Origin: Thereva unica
Taxonomy: Eukaryota > Arthropoda > Insecta > Diptera > Therevidae
Assembly: GCA_949987705.1 (NCBI GenBank)
Contig: OX465282.1
Span: 10,404,501 to 10,468,500 of the forward strand
Direction: 5' to 3'
Length of the DNA stretch: 64,000 bases
The notes below the pieces were generated by a model that was not told the DNA's origin, ran no database searches, and was given only the letters and a program-made list of their open reading frames with translations. Positions 10,021 through 55,080 of this stretch are shown in pieces. How positions within the stretch are numbered: the stretch's first letter is position 1; each line of letters begins with the position of its first letter. The translations under genes and the position numbers were made by a program.

Positions 10021-10736
10021 AGAAGGTGACTCCGCCATCTCAACCTTACTGACTGGGGCAAGCCCTAATGCCCAGCCATGCAATACAAACATCCAAATAG
10101 CCTCCAAACAAGGTCGAAACGTCGAGGAAGCAAGTCTGAGAAGATATGCTTCCTCTATTGCCGCTACAGGCGGTGCTGTGACCCTAAACCACCATCGAAA
10201 TCCTTATGGGGCCCCCCAGCCCATAAAGGCTTTCAAAAGGGGAGATCTAATCCCGTAAGGAAATGGCAGGCGGGCAGTGCTCGAAAAAAGTTTTATATAG
10301 GACAACTGGAAATACAATTTACGTGAAGTGAAAGGGTCGACCAAAGGGCGCCAAAAGACAATCTCGCTCCACCCTCTACGAGTGCTAGGGCCGGCGCTGA
10401 GCGTATATAATATAATTAATTATATTTTGATGAAGGCAGCAGTGATGAAGATAGTAGGAGTCTAATTAAATGTAGGAGACTATTAAGAAATTCTTCGAAT
10501 CTAGAATCAGAAGAAATTATGTAAGTATTCACTAACGGAGTCACACTTGAAAACCTCATTTCGGACCTTAACGGCAAAAAATCCGCGGATTTTCATCATC
10601 AGAAAATCAGAAAAGACCGAGTATTCCATCAAAACGGAGAATTCAACATGTTCTTTAAAAATTCTATCAGTGCACCAGGCAAGACAACCAAAATATGGTA
10701 TAATGCAACAAATGGTACCATTTTAAATATGTAGAA

Positions 10737-12323
10737 ATGCCTGCTGACATTGAAGAGAAGGATTGGATGTGTAACCAATGTGAAAAGAAGAATCTGCAGG
10801 ATCAGATATTTAGGGCAATACGCTCAAACAAGCGAACAGCCACGTCAAGTAAAGCAGCTTCTCAAAAATCACCATTGAAAGAGATCTGCAGGAAGAAGAA
10901 AAGGCAATTCCTCAACAATTACATCCTGAGAGCAGAGGAAAACTTTGCCCAAAACAAAACACGGGAAGCATACATGGAAGTAAACTTCTTCAAGAAAGGC
11001 TTCAAATCCTCCTCCGGTACATGTAGAACAAAAGAAGGCACTATAGTCACAGGCAGCGAAGATGTAAAGAAAAGATGGAAGGAATTTTTTAGCGAGCTGC
11101 TGAACGCAAATGAGAGCATCAGACGTGTACCAGAAGTCCGTCTACAACATAACGATGACACCAGAGAAACAAATGTACCCACTCTGGAAGATGTACAAAG
11201 TGCCATACGATCATTAAGAAACAACAAATCTCCAGGAATTGATAACATCCCAGCAGAGTTGATCAAACAAGGAGGCGAATCGCTCTCAGCAGCTATACAC
11301 GAATTACTATGCTGCATATGGAGGAATGAAAAAACCCCCGAAAGATTGGGAGCAAAGCTTTATCTGCCCAATACACAAGAAAGGGGATAGATTCAACTCA
11401 ACTGTGGAAACTATAGAGGCATATCTCTTTTAAACACAGTATATAAAATAATGACCAATATAATTAAGGCCAGACTGGAACCTTATGCAGAAGCTGCAAT
11501 AAGTGAATACCAAGCTGGGTTCAGGAGAAATATATCAACAATGGATCAACTTTTTCAATAAGGCAAATACTCCGAAAATGATGGGAATATAACATCGACG
11601 TATATCAACTTTTCATCGACTTTAAACAAGCATACGACAGCATCGACAGGGAGCAAATGTATGCAACAATGCTGGACCTAAACTTTCCCCTAAAGATAAT
11701 AAAATTAACAAAAATGACAATGGAAAATACAAGGTGTGCTGTCAGAATACAAGGAGAATTGACGGAGTCCTTCCCAGTCAAGCAAGGCTTAAATCAGGGC
11801 GATGGGCTAGCAGCGATGCTATTTAACCTCTGCCTAGAAGGAGTAATTCACAAGGTTAACATTGATGCGAACGCAACCCTGCTTAACAAATCCAAACAGT
11901 TGGCAGGATATGCCGACGATATAAACTGCCTTGCAAGATCACTGTCATATCATAGAGAAACATTCACAGAATTAGAAGATGGAGCGAAACATATAGGGCT
12001 GCAAATAAATGCAGAAAAGAGCAAGATTCTAATTCAGTCAGGGGTGGAAAGAAGAAGAAGAAACCACAATACCACCAGGGGGAAATATAACTTTGAACGG
12101 GTTAACCAATTTAACTACCTGGGGTCCACAGTCAGCGAAGACAACGGTGAAACGATAGACGTACAAAGAAGAATAAACTCCGCGAACAGAACATACTTCT
12201 CACTACTTCCAGTAATGAAATGCACAGAGCCATCCACAGAAAAACCAAAATAAAAATCTACAAAACCATCATACGTACAGTAGCTACGTATGGATGTGAA
12301 GCATGGAGATCTCAAGAGTTAAC
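10737..12323 (+). pseudogene. RTE-clade non-LTR retrotransposon, 5' portion (RT)
   Basis: The frame 10737-11390 opens with a PHD-finger-like end (DWMCNQCEKK). It continues into the pre-RT region with KRWKEFFSELLN and the RT motif NNKSPGIDNIPAELIKQGG. After a frameshift, 11400-11650 holds the NYRGISLLN-type, QAGFRR-type and YDSIDR-type motifs. The frame 11657-12253 encodes FPVKQGLNQGDG and the catalytic GYADDINCL (YADD at 11909-11920), and ends with FNYLGSTVSEDN. A last frame reads KIYKTIIRTVATYGCEAW. The copy is 5' truncated, lacks the endonuclease and has several frameshifts. It stops at 12323, where the jockey/CR1-type element is inserted; its missing C-terminus resumes at 17402. Confidence 0.85.
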
Positions 12324-12471
12324 CCTTCTAGCACAGAAGGCGCACTTTTCAGTTAAGCATGAAAATCTATATATACATACACATACACACATGTATATAT
12401 AAATATATATATATGTATATATATACATATATAGAGTTTCTCTTCTAACGCAGAAGGCGCACTTCCCAGCA
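12324..12471 (-). repeat. Duplicated 3'-end hairpin flanking a TA/CA microsatellite
   Basis: Two copies of about 27 bp (AAGTGCGCCTTCTG followed by GTTAGAAG or GCTAGAAG on the minus strand) lie at about 12327-12355 and 12441-12471. Each can fold as CTTCT...AGAAG. Between them is a TATATA/CACATA tract (about 12365-12435). CR1- and RTE-like elements often end in a structured 3' motif plus short repeats, so this is probably the element's own terminus, duplicated. Confidence 0.6.
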
Positions 12472-12574: not shown

Positions 12575-15490
12575 CTAAAAAGGGAGTGAGGCACGCAGAG
12601 AGTCACGCCACTTGAGAAGTGTCCTTTTAAGGACAACTTCACTGGTTAGCAAGCTAAACACACTCCTATTGTTGTTAGTATTTATAAGCATGCGATTAAC
12701 GGGTTCGAACATGCCATAATTGGTGTTAGAGGAATTAATGTGCAAGAGAGGTTCACCTCTCAGGTTGTAGTTATTCACTCTAAATGACGCGCGGTTTCTT
12801 AAGAAACCAGAGTCCACCTTGTCATTCATCAGTCGATGAACGAATATAACGTCAGCGACCTCACGGCGCTTATGGAGGGAGCTTAAGTTGAGCAATTTAA
12901 GTCTGTTCTCATAAGGCGGAAGAGCGAGTGGGTCATCCCACGGGAGGTGGCTGAGTGCAAACCGGACGAACTTCCTTTGAACCGATTCGATTCTACTAAC
13001 ATGGGAGGAGTAGTAAGGAGACCATACCTGGGAAGCGTAGTCAAGCAAAGGCCTAACCAAAGATACGTACAGGTGTTTAGTGACGAGGGGGTTGTTGAAC
13101 TCTTTGGACCATCTTTTTATAAATCCCAGGACTGAATTGCCCTTGGAGGAGATATAATTGATGTGGGTGGAGAAATCCAACTTACTTTCTAACCTAACCC
13201 CAAGATCGATTACAGATTCAGTACGGGAGACCTTGTTGTCAAGGAAAGTATAGTCATAAGTTATAACACCACGTTTCCTACAAAAAGTCATGACCTCGCA
13301 TTTACTAATATTAAGCACAAGGTTGTTGTTGGAACACCAAGAATAGAAGGTGTTTAGATCTGCTTGCAGAAGTTTGCAATCCTCTATACTCCTTATGTGG
13401 CGATACAGTTTGATGTCATCAGCGTAAATAAGGATTTTACAGTGCCTTAGCAGTGTAACAATATCGTCAATTGATAAAATAAAAAGAAGAGGGCCAAGAT
13501 GACTGCCTTGCGGGACTCCAGAGGACGCTTCGATATTCTTCGATTTGACTCCGCGGAATAGAACCTGGTAGGTTCTATCGGCTAAGTACGACTGGAACCA
13601 ATCCACAAGGGCATGCGGAAAGCCTAATTTCTTTAGTTTAAGAACTATAATAGAGTGGGAGAGCTTGTCGAAAGCTTTACTAAAATCTGTATAGACACAG
13701 TCAGTTTGGCAGCCAGTGACAAAGCCTCTAATTGTGTGTGAAGAGAACTCCAGTAAATTAGTAGTAGTGGAACGGGCTGCAAGAAAACCATGTTGGTTTG
13801 TTGAGATAAGCCTCTTGCAGATAGGGGCGATAGCAGAATAAATAATAGATTCGAAGAGTTTTGGTATAGACGACAACTTCGCAATTGGCCTATAATTAGA
13901 TATTTCGTTTTTACAGCCTTTCTTATGGACAGGTATTATAAAAGAGTTCTTCCATAAGGTTGGGAAGCGCCCTTTATTGAGGGATTTTTGAAATAAACAA
14001 AGAAGAGGAGACAGTAGGGCCCCTGCACAGGATTTTAGAACAGCTGGAGGGACTCCATCAGGGCCGGACGAAAAATCTTGTGGAAGTTCATTTATATGTT
14101 TCGAGATATCATCCCTGGTTATAGACAGGGAAAAGTTTTGAGCCGTTTGGATTGCATTGATATGTCGAAAATTGTCTTCATCTGGTTGGAATACAGGGGA
14201 CGAGAAAGATTTGAGGAAGAACGATGCAAAATTGTCACAAATTTCTGCTGAATTAGAACTAAGGGAGTTCTCGTATTTCATGGTGTAAGGGTAATTATCA
14301 ACTTTTTTCTTTGTGTTGATAAATTGAAAGAATGCTCTGGGATCACCATACACTTTACCTTCCATGTTTCTGAGGTACTCTTTATAGAGGGTTTCGGAGA
14401 GAGCATGAAATTGGTCATAGCAATTGAGAAATGCATCGAAACTCGCAGTGTCTTTCTTCTTCAGGTAGGTTTTCCAGAGTTTATTCTTCAGGTTTTTGGT
14501 ACGTCTCAACTCGGAGTTGTACCACGGTGGGGATGATCTGGACGATTTTAACGGCTCGATAGGTACACAGGATGCGAAAGTTTCATACAGGACGGAGTAA
14601 AATCTGGCTACATCGACATCCAACTCATTAGGTGAGAGCAACCAATTGAAATCGACCGAAGTGAGCTTGGATGACAGTTCCTCAAGGTTGGCTTTTTTAA
14701 AGTTAAAGGTAAAGGTTGACTCCTCTGGGATTGGCTTATTGTTAAAGACAGAACAATAGCTCAGTAGAAGAGGAGGGTGATAATTATCGACAGGTGACAA
14801 GACAATTGAGCTAGGCTCAACATTCATGTTGTCTGAGTCGGAAAAGAATACAAGATCTAACCGCCTTCCTAAAATATTATTCACACCGCTCATTTGGCAC
14901 AAGCCGCAGGAAAATAAGGAATTCAGAAAGTTGGATTCCCTAGAGTTAAGGTTGTTTCCAGGAAGGTAGTTATCGTCATCATCGCAAGATACCCATTTAA
15001 CATTGGGTAAGTTAAAATCACCTACAAGTAGGAGTTCATCTTTGGAATCCATCATATCTTGGATATGATTTATGCAAGTGATTAGAATATCATAGAGATT
15101 TTGACCTCTATCGTCAAGAGTGCTGAACATATCTGGTGGGATGTAACAGCAGATTAAAAATAAGTTGTTATGAACAAGGGAGACTTTGAGAGCGAGGACC
15201 TCAATGTCTAAAGTGTTGGAAAAATCAGGAAGCGTTATTAAGCAACAGTTGAGAAGGTTACTACATGCAAGTAGTACACCACCTCCACGAGCCTCCGAGT
15301 CAATATATCTATCCCTCCGAAAAACTTGGAAGGAAGAGTCGAAAAGTTCGGCATTAAGAATCCCACTGTATAGCCATGTTTCTGTAAAAGCGATTATATC
15401 GAAATCACTGGCCGAAGTCGACAGAAACACATCTTGGGTTTTAGATCTGATTCCCCTCACGTTTTGGTAATAGAGGGAAAGCGTCTTAAG
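12575..15490 (-). CDS. ORF2: endonuclease and reverse transcriptase
   Basis: Encodes the enzyme that nicks target DNA and copies the element RNA by target-primed reverse transcription. Residue numbers count from the first codon after the predicted frameshift (CTT at 15488-15490). An APE-type endonuclease occupies about residues 5-250: YYQNVRGIRSKT, FTETWL with the catalytic Glu, VGDFNLPNVKW, RLDLVF, and DNYHPPL near the usual Asp-His site. RT lies at about 430-740: GPDGVPPAVLK, NYRPIAKLSSIPKLFE, VYTDFSKAFDKLSHS, GVPQGSHLGPLLF and YADDIKLY (13415-13426). A C-terminal zone with RSVFSLLTSEVVLKRTLL follows; there is no RNase H. The frame is intact, about 971 codons. No ATG occurs before codon 121 of this frame (111 codons after the GTG at 15458-15460), beyond the catalytic Glu, so ATG initiation would destroy the endonuclease. 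Confidence 0.93.
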   Translation of the reverse strand, partial: LKTLSLYYQNVRGIRSKTQDVFLSTSASDFDIIAFTETWLYSGILNAELFDSSFQVFRRDRYIDSEARGGGVLLACSNLLNCCLITLPDFSNTLDIEVLALKVSLVHNNLFLICCYIPPDMFSTLDDRGQNLYDILITCINHIQDMMDSKDELLLVGDFNLPNVKWVSCDDDDNYLPGNNLNSRESNFLNSLFSCGLCQMSGVNNILGRRLDLVFFSDSDNMNVEPSSIVLSPVDNYHPPLLLSYCSVFNNKPIPEESTFTFNFKKANLEELSSKLTSVDFNWLLSPNELDVDVARFYSVLYETFASCVPIEPLKSSRSSPPWYNSELRRTKNLKNKLWKTYLKKKDTASFDAFLNCYDQFHALSETLYKEYLRNMEGKVYGDPRAFFQFINTKKKVDNYPYTMKYENSLSSNSAEICDNFASFFLKSFSSPVFQPDEDNFRHINAIQTAQNFSLSITRDDISKHINELPQDFSSGPDGVPPAVLKSCAGALLSPLLCLFQKSLNKGRFPTLWKNSFIIPVHKKGCKNEISNYRPIAKLSSIPKLFESIIYSAIAPICKRLISTNQHGFLAARSTTTNLLEFSSHTIRGFVTGCQTDCVYTDFSKAFDKLSHSIIVLKLKKLGFPHALVDWFQSYLADRTYQVLFRGVKSKNIEASSGVPQGSHLGPLLFILSIDDIVTLLRHCKILIYADDIKLYRHIRSIEDCKLLQADLNTFYSWCSNNNLVLNISKCEVMTFCRKRGVITYDYTFLDNKVSRTESVIDLGVRLESKLDFSTHINYISSKGNSVLGFIKRWSKEFNNPLVTKHLYVSLVRPLLDYASQVWSPYYSSHVSRIESVQRKFVRFALSHLPWDDPLALPPYENRLKLLNLSSLHKRREVADVIFVHRLMNDKVDSGFLRNRASFRVNNYNLRGEPLLHINSSNTNYGMFEPVNRMLINTNNNRSVFSLLTSEVVLKRTLLKWRDSLRASLPF

Positions 15491-15496
15491 TTTTTT
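15451..15496 (-). promoter_or_regulatory. Candidate -1 ribosomal frameshift signal
   Basis: The minus strand reads A AAA AAC at 15496-15490, with AAA and AAC as zero-frame ORF1 codons. Slipping back one base makes the next codon CTT at 15490, exactly the ORF2 frame. A 9-nt spacer (15489-15481) is followed by an 8-bp stem, TTTCCCTC (15480-15473) with GAGGGGAA (15458-15451), one G-U pair and a 14-nt loop. The ORF1 stop lies at the base of the 3' arm. A AAA AAC is one of the most efficient known eukaryotic -1 heptamers. Confidence 0.65.
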
Positions 15497-16824
15497 GAAA
15501 CTTGTAGAGTATCAGGAGTGCGCTGCTCGCGCGTGCGGGGGACAAAACATTTTGAAAAGGCACCAGGAGGCCAGAACGTGGGGTCTAAAAGCTTTTCAGC
15601 GGTATTGGGCGGTGCAGTCAAGATGAAAGACGCAACCGGTTTGGAGACATTGCTGATCTTCCTGCAGGAGACTGTAGCAGGGTTAATAGTTTTCCCCATT
15701 AGGTATTCTTTAATTGCCTCGCACGTAGTTTCAGGGGAGAAACGCGAAATGAAAATAGTTCGCGGCTTGGGTACCGTTATCAGATTAGCGCAGGTTACCG
15801 GAGACTCAGTATCTCCAGTGCCCGACGGTCCAACGATACTAATAGAAGAGGTTGATGCCGCAACCGGTTCTGGGATATAGTTTGAGCCCACTGGAAGTGA
15901 GGGTGCGCGGATAGACGAGCTAGTATAGGGGTTTGCAGTGACAGCATCCGTAACGTTAACTTTACGACTGCGTTTGCGTTTTCCATTCTTTCTACGGGCT
16001 TTCTTGTGGTCATGAGCCGGACTGGGGGCAGTCTCCACCGAAGGGCCCTTTTCAAGTATTATGGCGGGGTCATTCAGGGCTGTGGTGTTAAGAGCAACTG
16101 CATCATCCGCCGTTAGAGAAACAGCTGTGGGACAGGGTGTAGAAAGAAGCTTCTCCCCTACCTGTGAGGCGTCCGGTGAGGGGGAGTTTATTCTATCACA
16201 AACATTTTCAAATTTTAGCGATAGAGAACTCAGGGCTTTGTGATTTTGCACCACTGCTGTTGACAGCGATTCAATATCAGCCCGAACACGCTTCGTACTC
16301 CTTTTAATGTCGTCTAATATTGGATGAAGAGGAGCTAAGGAGTTGACAGAGCAGGATGAAGTGGCGACAGGATTGAGAATTGCTGAATGTATATCGTCGA
16401 TCGAGTCAAAAACTGTTGCAACCCGGGAAGAAATTTCTTGGAATTTATTTATTAGGGAACCCGAGTTGGTCGCAACAGAATCAAGGGTGTCTGATAAACT
16501 ATCAAGGCGGACGTTGATCGACTGGACATCATCGGCTAGCATCTGAAAATGTGAGACATTTCCAGAGAAGGTGTTAAAACGACCCATGACTTTTTCATGT
16601 CCATCGAGAAAGACATCAGAGATGTCTTTCATTAGTCTTAGGACGTGGCAGGGCTGAATGTTGAAGCATTCATTGCAAGTTGACCCTCTAGGGGCCAAAG
16701 GTTTGCCACTTATTCGAGGATTGAGGCAGGTGAGGTGAAAAACGCCTCCACAAACACCATCACAGAAAATCCCATCTCGGGCAATTTCCGAAGAGCATAG
16801 CTTGCAGACCTGATGACTCGCCAT
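15457..16824 (-). CDS. ORF1: PHD-finger RNA-binding protein of the retrotransposon
   Basis: A 455-aa ORF1 protein, presumed to bind element RNA in the RNP. An N-terminal PHD finger has the full C4-H-C3 set (C7, C10, C21, C25, H30, C33, C50, C53). A long helical, probably coiled-coil region (about 60-230) follows with many Leu/Val/Ser, then a basic segment KKARRKNGKRKRSRK (about 280) that may act in nuclear localisation. A C-terminal fold (about 350-440; TIFISRFSPETTCEAIKEYL, LLDPTFWPPGAF) is RRM-like, as in other PHD-bearing ORF1 proteins. The ATG at 16824 is the first in a long AT-rich leader. The stop TGA (15457-15459) overlaps ORF2, which is in the -1 frame. Confidence 0.9.
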   Translation of the reverse strand: MASHQVCKLCSSEIARDGIFCDGVCGGVFHLTCLNPRISGKPLAPRGSTCNECFNIQPCHVLRLMKDISDVFLDGHEKVMGRFNTFSGNVSHFQMLADDVQSINVRLDSLSDTLDSVATNSGSLINKFQEISSRVATVFDSIDDIHSAILNPVATSSCSVNSLAPLHPILDDIKRSTKRVRADIESLSTAVVQNHKALSSLSLKFENVCDRINSPSPDASQVGEKLLSTPCPTAVSLTADDAVALNTTALNDPAIILEKGPSVETAPSPAHDHKKARRKNGKRKRSRKVNVTDAVTANPYTSSSIRAPSLPVGSNYIPEPVAASTSSISIVGPSGTGDTESPVTCANLITVPKPRTIFISRFSPETTCEAIKEYLMGKTINPATVSCRKISNVSKPVASFILTAPPNTAEKLLDPTFWPPGAFSKCFVPRTREQRTPDTLQVSKNLRRFPSITKT

Positions 16825-17401
16825 TAGAAAGAAAAAATAGTATAATTAAAATAAAACAAAAAAAAAATTAAAAAATTGAAAACGATAAAACCCCGATTTA
16901 ACTGCGAAAACAAAATAAGACAAAATTGTTTAAAACAATTTTATGCAGTTTGAGTGCAGATGGGTTTCGAAACGTTGCATAACCTCAGGTGAAAAAATAA
17001 GAAAAGGAAAAAAATATTAAAAAATGAGGTTATGGTAATTGAAAATAAAATTAACACCCAATTTTATTTTTTTTATTCTTTTATGCCCTCTGCACAAAAA
17101 AGAATCAGGACTAAATGAAAAATGTTTAAAAAAAAAGATTAAAAATTGCACTAAGGGTAAAGGTTACCAACCTCGAAACAGCTGGGGAAACCGTAGCACA
17201 ACAACACAAAAAACAAAAGAAAACACCGAACACAAAAACAAGAGAAAGAACACAAAAATAAAATGCTCGAGCGAATTGTCACTAGCACTGGAAATTAAAA
17301 GCCACTTAAAACACAAAATTAAGTATTTAGAAGTTGAAAAATGGCAATAAAAACATAAAAAAAAATTATTAAAACGCGGACGACCGGCACCAACGACACT
17401 G
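16825..17401 (-). promoter_or_regulatory. 5' leader and likely internal promoter of the retrotransposon
   Basis: About 577 bp of very AT-rich leader precede ORF1. At the extreme 5' end the minus strand reads CAGTGTCGTTGGTGCCGG, and the preceding base makes TCAGT, an arthropod initiator. Jockey-type elements carry TATA-less internal promoters starting at base 1, so transcription is expected here. Position inferred, not shown. Confidence 0.45.
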
Positions 17402-17790
17402 ACAGTTGACACCCAGACAAGATGGATATACGGCCCAATCAATGAAGGCAATGCATGGAGAATACGTTACAATCATGAATTGTACGATCTATACAAAGAG
17501 TGTAAACTCTCGACACCTGCTAAGCTACTGCGTTTACGTTGGGCCGGTCATGTCCAAAGAATGGATAACTCAAGGATACCAAAAAAGCCCTGTCTCTACT
17601 ACCAGATGGCAAAAGACCAGTTGGCAAACCACGGTTAAGGTGGGAAGACAATGTTAAGGCCGATGCAGCAAAACTGCTCAACACAAGAAACTGGAGACAA
17701 GCTGCGGAGCAGAGAGACGTCTGGAGGAAGAAGCTGATAGAGACCAAGGCTCGAATCGGGCTGTAGACTCATCGAAGAAGAAGAAGAAAC
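17402..17790 (+). pseudogene. RTE retrotransposon, 3' portion (continuation)
   Basis: The C-terminus of the RTE protein interrupted at 12323. The forward frame reads RWIYGPINEGNAWRIRYNHE, then LRLRWAGHVQRMDNSRIPKK, then in shifted frames VGKPRLRWEDN-like and NTRNWRQAAEQRDVW-like motifs, ending ARIGL and a stop at about 17765. A short GAA repeat (17773-17787) follows, the usual RTE 3' tail. Restoring the order 12323 to 17402 gives the normal domain order, so the two pieces were one element before the jockey/CR1-type insertion. Confidence 0.85.
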
Positions 17791-19342: not shown

Positions 19343-19684
19343 ATGCGAAGAACAAATTATAGCTATCAACCTCTTTCCCAAGATGTTCCAAGTACAAGTC
19401 ATGATGCCCTGGAAGAGGAAAACGAAAGAGTTGCCGAGGAGCTAAAGGAGAAGATAGGTGCACTAAAATCCCTTACAATTGACATAGGGAACGAAGTCCG
19501 ATATCAAGACAGGCTCGTTCGTGGCATTGATGATGATATGGACAGAACTGGGGGATTCCTGCAGACGACAATGTCCAGAGTCATACGGTTGGGGAAGAAC
19601 GGCGGCACCAAACATATGTGCTACATGTTTCTTTTTATTCTATTTGTATTTCTTGTTCTGTATTTGGTTATTAAGTTAAGGTAG
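19343..19684 (+). CDS. Bet1: BET1-like Golgi vesicle SNARE
   Basis: Encodes a 113-aa tail-anchored Qc-SNARE of the BET1 family, which acts with syntaxin-5-type, membrin/Bos1-type and Sec22-type partners in ER-to-Golgi vesicle fusion. It starts MRRTNYSYQPL, like known BET1 proteins. The SNARE helix runs from about 24 to 84 (EEENERVAEELKEKIGALKS, then LTIDIGNEV), with the zero-layer Gln likely Q55 in RYQDRL and the conserved DDDMDRTGGFL. A single C-terminal membrane segment (about 92-110) ends in IKLR. The ATG at 19343 has A at -3 and is the first in-frame ATG; the upstream in-frame GTG (19322) is not needed. No intron interrupts the frame and no internal stop is present. An intronless gene or an expressed retrocopy are both possible. 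No canonical AATAAA lies close downstream; AATAAG is near 19802. Confidence 0.93.
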   Translation: MRRTNYSYQPLSQDVPSTSHDALEEENERVAEELKEKIGALKSLTIDIGNEVRYQDRLVRGIDDDMDRTGGFLQTTMSRVIRLGKNGGTKHMCYMFLFILFVFLVLYLVIKLR

Positions 19685-43451: not shown

Positions 43452-43881
43452 TTTCTTCTCTTTTCTTTGATCCGTTAGCTGGCGGTCCGAGCGGGACGTC
43501 TCCGCAACGGATACGCTGCTGTCGGTGCCGCTGGGTCTCGAACTCTATTCACGATTTGTTTCCATTCTTGCCGGTTTTTGGCGACGTCTCGAGCCTCGGT
43601 AACTGATAACCGTTGATTCCTTAGATCACCCTCGATATTCTTTAGCCAGGTTTTCTTCGGTGCCGATCGCTGGATTCTCCAGCCTGCGGGACGGTCTCGC
43701 CAGAGAAGTTTACGTGGCAAGCGGTCATCATCCATTCGGCAAACATGTCCAAACCAGCGTAGTCGACGTTTTTGCATTTCTTCTTCGATCAGTGTCTGTT
43801 AATCGCATCTTTGTCTAACTGTCTCGTTTCAAAGGCGATTGCGTAGTGAGACACCGAGGATCTGCCTCAAGCATCGCATTT
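43452..43881 (-). pseudogene. SR2-like RTE element, C-terminal fragment
   Basis: The minus-strand frame (43475-43777) has KRRLRWFGHVCRMDDDRLPR, then PAGWRIQRSAPKKTWLKN and DVAKNRQEWKQIVNRVRDP. It is nearly identical to 53858-54160. The LRWFGHV-x-RM motif is the C-terminal signature of RTE-type proteins. The copy is 5' truncated at 43881, where homology to the 53838-55080 copy stops abruptly. Confidence 0.85.
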
Positions 43882-53837: not shown

Positions 53838-55080
53838 GCTTCTTCTACTTTGATCCGTTATCTGGTGGTCCGATCGGGACGTCCCCGCAACGGATACGCT
53901 GTCGGTGCCGCTGGGTCTCGAACTCTATTCACGATTCGTTTCCACTCTTGCCGGTTTTTGGCGACGTCTGGAGCCTCGATAACTGATAACCGTTGATTCT
54001 TTAGGTCACCCTCGACATTCTTTAGCCAGGTTTTCTTCGGTGCCGATCGCTGGATTCTCCAGCCTGCGGGACGGTCTCGCCAGAGAAGTTTACGTGGCAA
54101 GCGGTCATCATCCATGCGGCAAACATGTCCAAACCACCGTAGTCGACGCTTTTGCATTTCTTCTTCGATCAGTGTCTGCTGATCACATCTTTGTCTGACT
54201 GTCTCGTTTCGAAGGTGATCGCGTAGTGAGACACCGAGGATCGGTCTCAAGCATCGCATTTTTAAGACCTCGAGCTTCTTAACGTCCAGTTTGAGCAGTG
54301 TCCACGTTTCAGATCCATAAAGTAGAATTGGAAGGATCAACGTTCGGTAAATGCGTACTTTTGTTTTGATGGAAATATTTGTTCGTTTCCATATGCACCG
54401 CTTGAGCGAGGCGAATGTTACTGTTGCCTGGCCTTGTTGCACTTTGGTCTTCTCTACATTGATTTTTAACCCGTATGACTGGGCGATGCGGGAAATGTCG
54501 TATAAGATGTCCGCTGCTTCGACATCCATGTCGGCGAAGACAGCGCTATCGTCGGCGAACATTAAGTCGGTTACGAAGTTGTTGTCGTCGTATCGAACTC
54601 CGAGTCGTCCATCGAATGCTTCACGCGCATAATCGCGTCGATCATAACATTGAAGACAAGTGGCGAAGCGACGACGGCTCCCTGTCGAACACCCGTTTGA
54701 ATCGAGATCTCCTCGGATAAGTCTCTTCGAATACGAACGCTGCTGGTTGAGCCATCGTACGACGCTTGGAGAAGTTTGATGATTCTCAATGGCACGTGTT
54801 CAGTTTCCAAGGCTCCACAAGCTGTTCCAATAGACGCAATCGAAAGCGGATTTGAAATCGATGAAAACGACGACAGTTCGTTTGCCACAACGAATTCTTT
54901 CTTCCATTAGCTGACGGAGTGCGAATATTTGATCAATGCATCCTCGATGTGGTCTAAATCCCACTTGTTTTTTCCGGCTCGTTTGCTCATGGGTAAAGGC
55001 GAGTATTTCTTCATCGAGCCGATCTTTGCTTAGCAGCTGTTGATGAGGATTCAATTCTTGATCAAGCAATTCTCTAAAAT
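53838..55080 (-). pseudogene. SR2-like RTE retrotransposon, 3' 1.2 kb
   Basis: Minus-strand frames, in order. At 54800-55069: ERIRCGKRTVVVFIDFKSAF then DCVYWNSLWS. At 54571-54888: an RT segment with SEEISIQTGVRQGAVVASPL and VFNVMIDAIM. At 53858-54562: MFADDSAVFADM with the catalytic FADD, SYGLKINVEKTKV, LILPILLYGSETWTLLK, then LRWFGHVCRMDDDRLPR. These are the RT fingers, palm and C-terminus of an RTE-clade element of the SR2-like kind. Two frameshifts break it and the endonuclease is missing. The 3' end at 53838 is CTT-rich. Confidence 0.88.

Follow-up and report, generated by a model that had tools for sequence, protein, structure and literature searches.

A conserved A AAA AAC heptamer points to −1 ribosomal frameshifting between the two reading frames of a CR1-like retrotransposon in Thereva unica

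Retroviruses use −1 ribosomal frameshifting at their gag-pro and gag-pol boundaries, and the gag-pro site of mouse mammary tumour virus is A AAA AAC. How long interspersed nuclear elements (LINEs) with two open reading frames (ORFs) express their second protein is an old question, to which reinitiation is the usual answer. We analysed a stretch of 64,000 nucleotides (nt) of Thereva unica (contig OX465282.1, positions 10,404,501 to 10,468,500), hereafter the window, which holds a two-ORF element on the minus strand. Judged from its ORF layout, the element is a CR1-like non-long-terminal-repeat (non-LTR) retrotransposon, and both of its ORFs are intact. Its ORF2 is probably expressed by a fixed −1 ribosomal frameshift on A AAA AAC that would yield an ORF1-ORF2 fusion, the reading to which conservation of the junction across families points.

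The junction resembles retroviral −1 frameshifting in its heptamer, the phase of that heptamer, a short spacer, a potential for a hairpin downstream, an early stop of the upstream ORF and an enzyme predicted to be made as a fusion. It differs in that the host is a non-LTR element and that no protease domain was found in the element by Pfam; unlike retroviral signals, no pseudoknot is in evidence here and the hairpin is without covariation support. Among LINEs, the closest layout is that of CR1 subgroup 4 of Metcalfe and Casane (2014), which has a type IIIB ORF1 with a PHD finger plus an RNA recognition motif (RRM) (PMC4120745). The present element likewise encodes a PHD finger and a single RRM, then an apurinic/apyrimidinic (APE) endonuclease and a reverse transcriptase (RT); unlike the reading proposed here, the word "frameshift" appears nowhere in the main text of that paper. 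For the LINEs of Paramecium, recoding between ORF1 and ORF2 has been suggested from consensus sequences, as +1 frameshifting or re-initiation in Groups 1 and 2 and as stop read-through in Group 3 (PMC5405496). These elements differ from ours in belonging to a ciliate clade and in that no −1 heptamer is described in the portion of that paper considered here. Translation of ORF2 in SART1 and L1 depends on translation of ORF1 (PMC2881922, PMC1965478), as it would here, but the present element, unlike SART1 and L1, exhibits a 55-nt overlap, no ORF2 AUG before codon 128 and a fixed slippery heptamer. The Drosophila telomeric elements HeT-A and TART are non-LTR like ours, HeT-A being without RT, and a review of recoding places frameshifting within HeT-A gag and calls the route to ORF2 of TART and L1 unknown in the section concerned (PMC5009743). 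No two-ORF LINE with a −1 frameshift from ORF1 into ORF2 was reported in the portions of open-access full texts covered, a body of literature that leaves most subscription papers outside. A slippery site fixed across LINE families would make the expression question simply testable.

ORF1 (16824-15457; 455 residues) and ORF2 (15511-12575; 978 codons without a stop), both on the minus strand like all further coordinates of the element, overlap by 55 nt (15457-15511), i.e. 17 sense codons of ORF1, and the ORF2 frame lies one base back (−1) of the ORF1 frame. The heptamer A AAA AAC (15490-15496) stands in the ORF1 phase (TCA AAA AAC), and a −1 slip on it enters the ORF2 frame. It is followed by a 9-nt spacer (15481-15489), which contains an ACG codon (15484-15482) in the ORF2 frame, and then by a predicted hairpin (15451-15480) of 8 bp, one of them G-U, with a 14-nt loop. 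The ORF1 stop TGA (15457-15459) lies within this stem-loop, 30 nt past the heptamer, in the codons for YYQNVRG, where it arises out of frame from GTG AGG, which ORF2 reads as Val-Arg. No ATG occurs in ORF2 before codon 128 (15130), well behind the catalytic Glu of the FTETW endonuclease motif, which is codon 44. An earlier note on this DNA had described the heptamer and its phase, the landing of the slip product in ORF2, the spacer, the stem, the loop with the enclosed stop, and an ORF2 devoid of ATG until past this Glu, and its description of the window copy was accurate throughout. AAAAAAC is the only heptamer of the form X XXY YYZ (Y being A or T, and Z not G) in the ORF1 phase; when codons were shuffled, 3.7% of cases had any such in-phase heptamer within the overlap and 0.36% had AAAAAAC itself. 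Considering these chance figures together with a weak hairpin, the single copy is unable to settle whether frameshifting occurs.

Copies of the element were therefore sought in the 910-Mb assembly (930 contigs) that is the source of the window; all DNA compared comes from this one genome. No second copy lies within the 64-kb window. A 401-nt query gave 1368 candidate places, of which the best 40, those scored, all match the full 401 nt at 99-100%. When the junction was searched for as a pattern that leaves the heptamer letters free, 131 junctions were retrieved and the reversed control gave 0. Among the 100 of these that were listed, AAAAAAC is present in 97, the other three carry substitutions, and none exhibits a change of junction length. 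The earlier note had named intact copies that keep the overlap but lack the heptamer as one observation that would speak against it; in the window's family the three copies with an altered heptamer are all broken, with early stops in both frames. The copies L001-L061, retrieved through their likeness to the window's junction or via the junction flanks, amount to 49 different junction sequences after identical ones are merged, three of which were fetched for their differing heptamer. Both ORFs are open over the stretch compared in 13 of the 49, all 13 with AAAAAAC, and the first ORF2-frame Met is codon 128 in 12 of these 13; in the remaining one, L053, an ORF2-frame ATG lies further upstream, since a stop there has been lost. 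Several subfamilies are present, the copies L001-L028 being 97.4-100% identical to the window except L021 (96.4%). Because AAAAAAC is nearly, and the junction length fully, constant across the listed junctions of the family, the frame break is inherited and not a copy error and, on the copies compared, it is a fixed feature of the amplified element.

Other families of the host genome share this junction. Sequence searches found a single relative of ORF1, the protein P0121, which as a query gave 122 scored ORF1 places (1886 candidates). From these, 40 junctions were chosen, their sequence still unseen, so as to favour long open frames and a spread over families. A AAA AAC stands in the ORF1 phase in 37 of the 40; L097 reads T AAA AAC with a TAG immediately after and thus stops at the site, and L069 and L079 are taken up below. 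A script detected both motifs in 31 of the 40 loci: the frame difference is −1 in all 31, the ORF1 stop falls at one shared position in 30, and the open ORF2 frame compared is free of ATG upstream of YYQN in every one of them. An AUG at or near the ORF1 stop, the hallmark of a reinitiation-type LINE, was likewise found in none of the 31 loci, nor in the window, where the first ATG is that of codon 128. The nine loci that the script left unplaced were read by eye, and in eight of them the heptamer is present with the overlap at −1; in L095 the heptamer is retained, with a broken linker frame and a sequence that ends after YYQ. With the ORF2 relative P0009 as query, 47 places were scored of 64353 candidates, and 16 junctions were chosen in the same way (open frames, family spread, junction unseen). 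The heptamer and the −1 frame are present in 15 of the 16, L107 being without a junction. Nucleotide identity in the early endonuclease is 70-88% between six families. One of the ORF2 places, G000:C2:7890909-7893752, presents an open frame of 1393 residues; as the junction there (L102) is still A AAA AAC and −1, this frame derives from further upstream. The alignment of copies that the earlier note had proposed as a check thus shows that the heptamer and its phase, the −1 frame of ORF2 and the site of the ORF1 stop are conserved across families, and this conservation, within one genome, supports the ORF1-ORF2 fusion by −1 frameshifting that it had put forward.

The third positions of the heptamer codons are more constant than those at the RRM end. 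Among nine representatives, which contain two near pairs (L065/L068 and L071/L072) and from which L069 and L097 were left out, 11 of 13 conserved-residue codons at the RRM end vary synonymously. In the same nine, the third positions of the heptamer are A in eight (a Ser or Pro codon), A in nine and C in nine; the first residue alternates between Ser and Pro, and AAA and AAC are invariant. The heptamer is accordingly conserved beyond coding needs, a finding weakened by fixed codons that follow it. ORF2-frame codons at or before the heptamer need no translation under frameshifting and under an ACG start alike, so that coding in two frames is a poor explanation of the heptamer. Across six families, the linker from FVPR to the heptamer ranges from 36 to 60 nt and the five bases between heptamer and ACG show a mean identity of 76%; these representatives were chosen by a heptamer-requiring pattern, which makes the 100% identity of the heptamer a matter of construction and only its flanks informative. 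Over 75 endonuclease codons that precede the first ATG of the window copy, the ratio of nonsynonymous to synonymous change (dN/dS) is 0.07-0.24 in 15 family pairs, with synonymous differences as high as 0.73 in some of them, and indicates purifying selection; within the family, changes ahead of the first ATG are too few to use. Therefore, this part of ORF2 is made.

We also investigated the RNA downstream of the heptamer. The window hairpin alone is unremarkable and weak evidence: its z score against shuffles is −1.07 and 31 of 200 shuffles fold equally well, as do 71 of 288 windows along ORF2. Out of 2000 synonymous draws, 115 equalled it in 60-nt energy, 81 in 45-nt energy and 170 in stem length. 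Among the 57 AAAAAAC sites of the window (itself included), an equal or better fold follows 10 and an equal or longer stem follows 6. Structures were compared over 12 types from 21 unique segments (L076, L077, L083, L090, L093, L094, L095, L097 and L098 were left out, and L069 gave no segment). In the 8-bp stem, a two-sided change occurs in one cell, no more than in shuffles. RNAalifold favours a shifted core, in which CCUCU pairs with AGRGG and UAC pairs with GUA; 99% of its cells are paired. In the downstream 60 nt, the number of synonymous draws (of 1000) that fold as well is 2 for L074, 9 for L072, 74 for the window and 362 for L062; the advantage over the draws is clear in the first two and not in the last two. 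The family of L074, L075, L076, L084, L085 and L100 carries a stronger downstream hairpin (−17.3 to −19.1 kcal/mol), and its CUCAC and GUGAG arms occur in none of the other types. The coding of YYQNVRG confounds structure conservation in this region. A stimulatory RNA structure downstream of the heptamer is no more than plausible.

Several observations weigh against frameshifting as the route to ORF2. The families are related by descent within one genome, and the junction counts are not independent. L079 (G AAA AAC) and L069 (A AAA AAG, with a junction 3 nt shorter; G000:C1:88379597-88380047) retain the overlap without AAAAAAC, L069 being a naturally occurring variant of the site. The endonuclease of L079 appears decayed (FAETRL vs FTETWL in the window); that of L069 is not visibly decayed, and L069 is open in both frames from the RRM end to the ORF1 stop and into ORF2 over the stretch seen. 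The post-heptamer codons AGA, CCC and TCT, where the frames overlap, are also fixed in nine of nine representatives, so that the constancy of the third bases of the heptamer is support and not proof. The ACG of the spacer is as well conserved as the heptamer. As for the RNA, the earlier note had named a conserved stem with compensatory changes as something that would support its reading; over the 12 types the 8-bp stem pairs in 80.2% of cells and its closing C-G is present in 3 of 12, and we rejected it as a conserved element in that exact register. The shifted core presents neither two-sided change nor a gain over shuffles among these types, and it is thus the pairing of a shifted stem, without its covariation, that stands. 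Finally, ORF2 has a predicted start near YYQN in many distant relatives: 58 of the 120 ORF2 relatives listed have starts, as predicted by gene callers, at most 14 residues from the Q of that motif, and an own start codon therefore looks common in the wider group.

The last of these points bears on the main rival to frameshifting, which is that ORF2 has a start of its own at a codon other than AUG. The likeliest such codon is the ACG at 15484-15482, used in reinitiation coupled to ORF1 termination 22 nt on. This ACG is in the ORF2 frame, near the predicted start of many relatives, has a purine at −3, and recurs in all junctions of the ORF1-homology set but L079 (39 of 40) and in all of the ORF2-homology set but L107 (15 of 16); the junction pattern used for the window's family required ACG, and the count in that family is thus uninformative on it. 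The dependence of ORF2 on ORF1 translation in SART1 and L1 (PMC2881922) is in line with such coupling, and in human L1 other sense codons are tolerated at the ORF2 start (PMC1965478). However, an ACG start leaves unexplained why the third positions of the heptamer are constant while the five bases from heptamer to ACG vary, and the ACG lies in conserved Arg-Arg codons of ORF1, which may be what keeps it. In Zorro3, a yeast LINE, replacement of the ATG by ACG lowered retrotransposition to 4.5% of wild type, and to 18% in a subset (PMC1965478). We consider initiation at this codon unlikely, though worth more attention than the two accounts that follow.

That ORF2 is instead made only from its first ATG (codon 128), without the front of the endonuclease, or is helped in trans by other elements, has in its favour that P0001, the closest protein relative, is also predicted to start at this codon. 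The purifying selection between families on the endonuclease codons before this ATG makes such an account very improbable. That the frame break is a homopolymer mutation or a sequencing error in an originally single-frame fused gene draws on the heptamer lying in an A6 run, of which the 4250 nt of coding sequence contain three, and on seven relatives elsewhere that have the RRM end in the ORF2 frame. We give this next to no credence, since the listed junctions of the window's family show no length change, the −1 break is shared by other families (31 of 31 loci, and 15 of 15 with a junction in the ORF2-homology set) and both ORFs are open on either side of the break in 13 copies. Copy-specific error or decay of the copy is refuted by the family-wide constancy of the junction, the open copies and the other families.

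Under −1 frameshifting, the majority of ribosomes would read through ORF1 to its stop and free a PHD-RRM protein. A minority would slip back one base on A AAA AAC, re-pairing on A AAA AAA, and go on into ORF2 to give a PHD-RRM-endonuclease-RT fusion. Slippage at the heptamer and its frequency, assistance by the downstream RNA fold, and the fusion as the working enzyme are predicted steps of this scheme. A LINE enzyme fused to a PHD finger and an RRM would be useful for studies of cis-preference and of chromatin targeting. We also lean, if slightly, towards a broader proposal, in which a whole LINE lineage has adopted retrovirus-style expression, with a fixed −1 frameshift as the sole route to RT and every enzyme fronted by PHD and RRM. 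In such a lineage the frameshift would set the ratio of ORF1 product to enzyme, and would link the endonuclease both to a domain that reads chromatin and to its own RNA.

As to relatives outside the host genome, a tree of 61 rows places P0001 next to the window (72% identity, support 100), within a clade of 14 rows. Seven distant relatives have FVP, the motif at the end of the RRM, in the frame of ORF2, and six of them fall in that clade, P0064 having been left out of the tree. Their FVP likely reflects translation through the junction; these records are protein only, without DNA, and we did not retain them as proof of frameshifting elsewhere. P0121 was likewise set aside as a case of an ORF2 that overlaps: its sequence, back-translated by hand, has no YYQN in the −1 frame, and it is a relative of ORF1 only. 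Relatives were absent from the collections of viral contigs and of genome contigs, and from phages searched by tblastn.

The domains of both proteins agree with what the earlier note had read from them. ORF1 comprises a PHD finger, a middle part, a C-terminal RRM-like domain and a tail. The PHD finger (16666-16806) is matched by Pfam PF00628 with an E-value of 1e-5 and 25.9 bits against a cut-off of 24. A search aimed at the region of the RRM-like domain (15535-15768), which terminates in strand 4 and FVPR, found nothing; its AlphaFold2 model exhibits a beta-alpha-beta-beta-alpha-beta order, with predicted local distance difference test (pLDDT) values of 91-95 in a block across residues 21-90 of the 122 modelled and 75.8 overall. 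The tail after FVPR, about 25 residues, is of low confidence. PDB fold matches to the model include RRMs, such as Musashi-2 RRM1 (E 0.026, template modelling score 0.70 by target length), and the single match with an E-value below 0.001 is a SecDF domain. As the RRM matches are weak and the top match is SecDF, "RRM-like" is a statement at the level of fold. With the Pfam PHD finger and this one modelled fold, ORF1 presents the composition of type IIIB. In ORF2, the endonuclease domain Exo_endo_phos (14837-15463) is matched by Pfam with 24.8 bits against a cut-off of 24.5, Exo_endo_phos_2 likewise matches the region, and the reverse transcriptase domain RVT_1 (13253-13927) is matched with an E-value of 5.8e-30; this is the APE endonuclease plus RT expected of a CR1-lineage LINE.

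The element is flanked by another LINE in pieces on the opposite (plus) strand, at 10704-12300 and at about 17400-17762, into which it seems, from this arrangement, to have inserted. The piece before the element (10704-12300) carries an RT followed by TYGCEAW; in the piece after it (about 17400-17762), RWIYGPINEGNAWRIRYNHELY and WAGHVQRMD were read by eye, then ARIGL in another frame. Just past the ORF2 end, a 28-nt motif occurs twice (12325-12352 and 12442-12469; 86% alike) around an AT-rich microsatellite, and it may belong to the 3' end recognised by the RT. Further away, a short ORF on the plus strand at 19343-19681 encodes what appears to resemble the SNARE protein Bet1. A 427-nt repeat is present in two copies of 93% identity, at 43455-43881 and 53839-54261.

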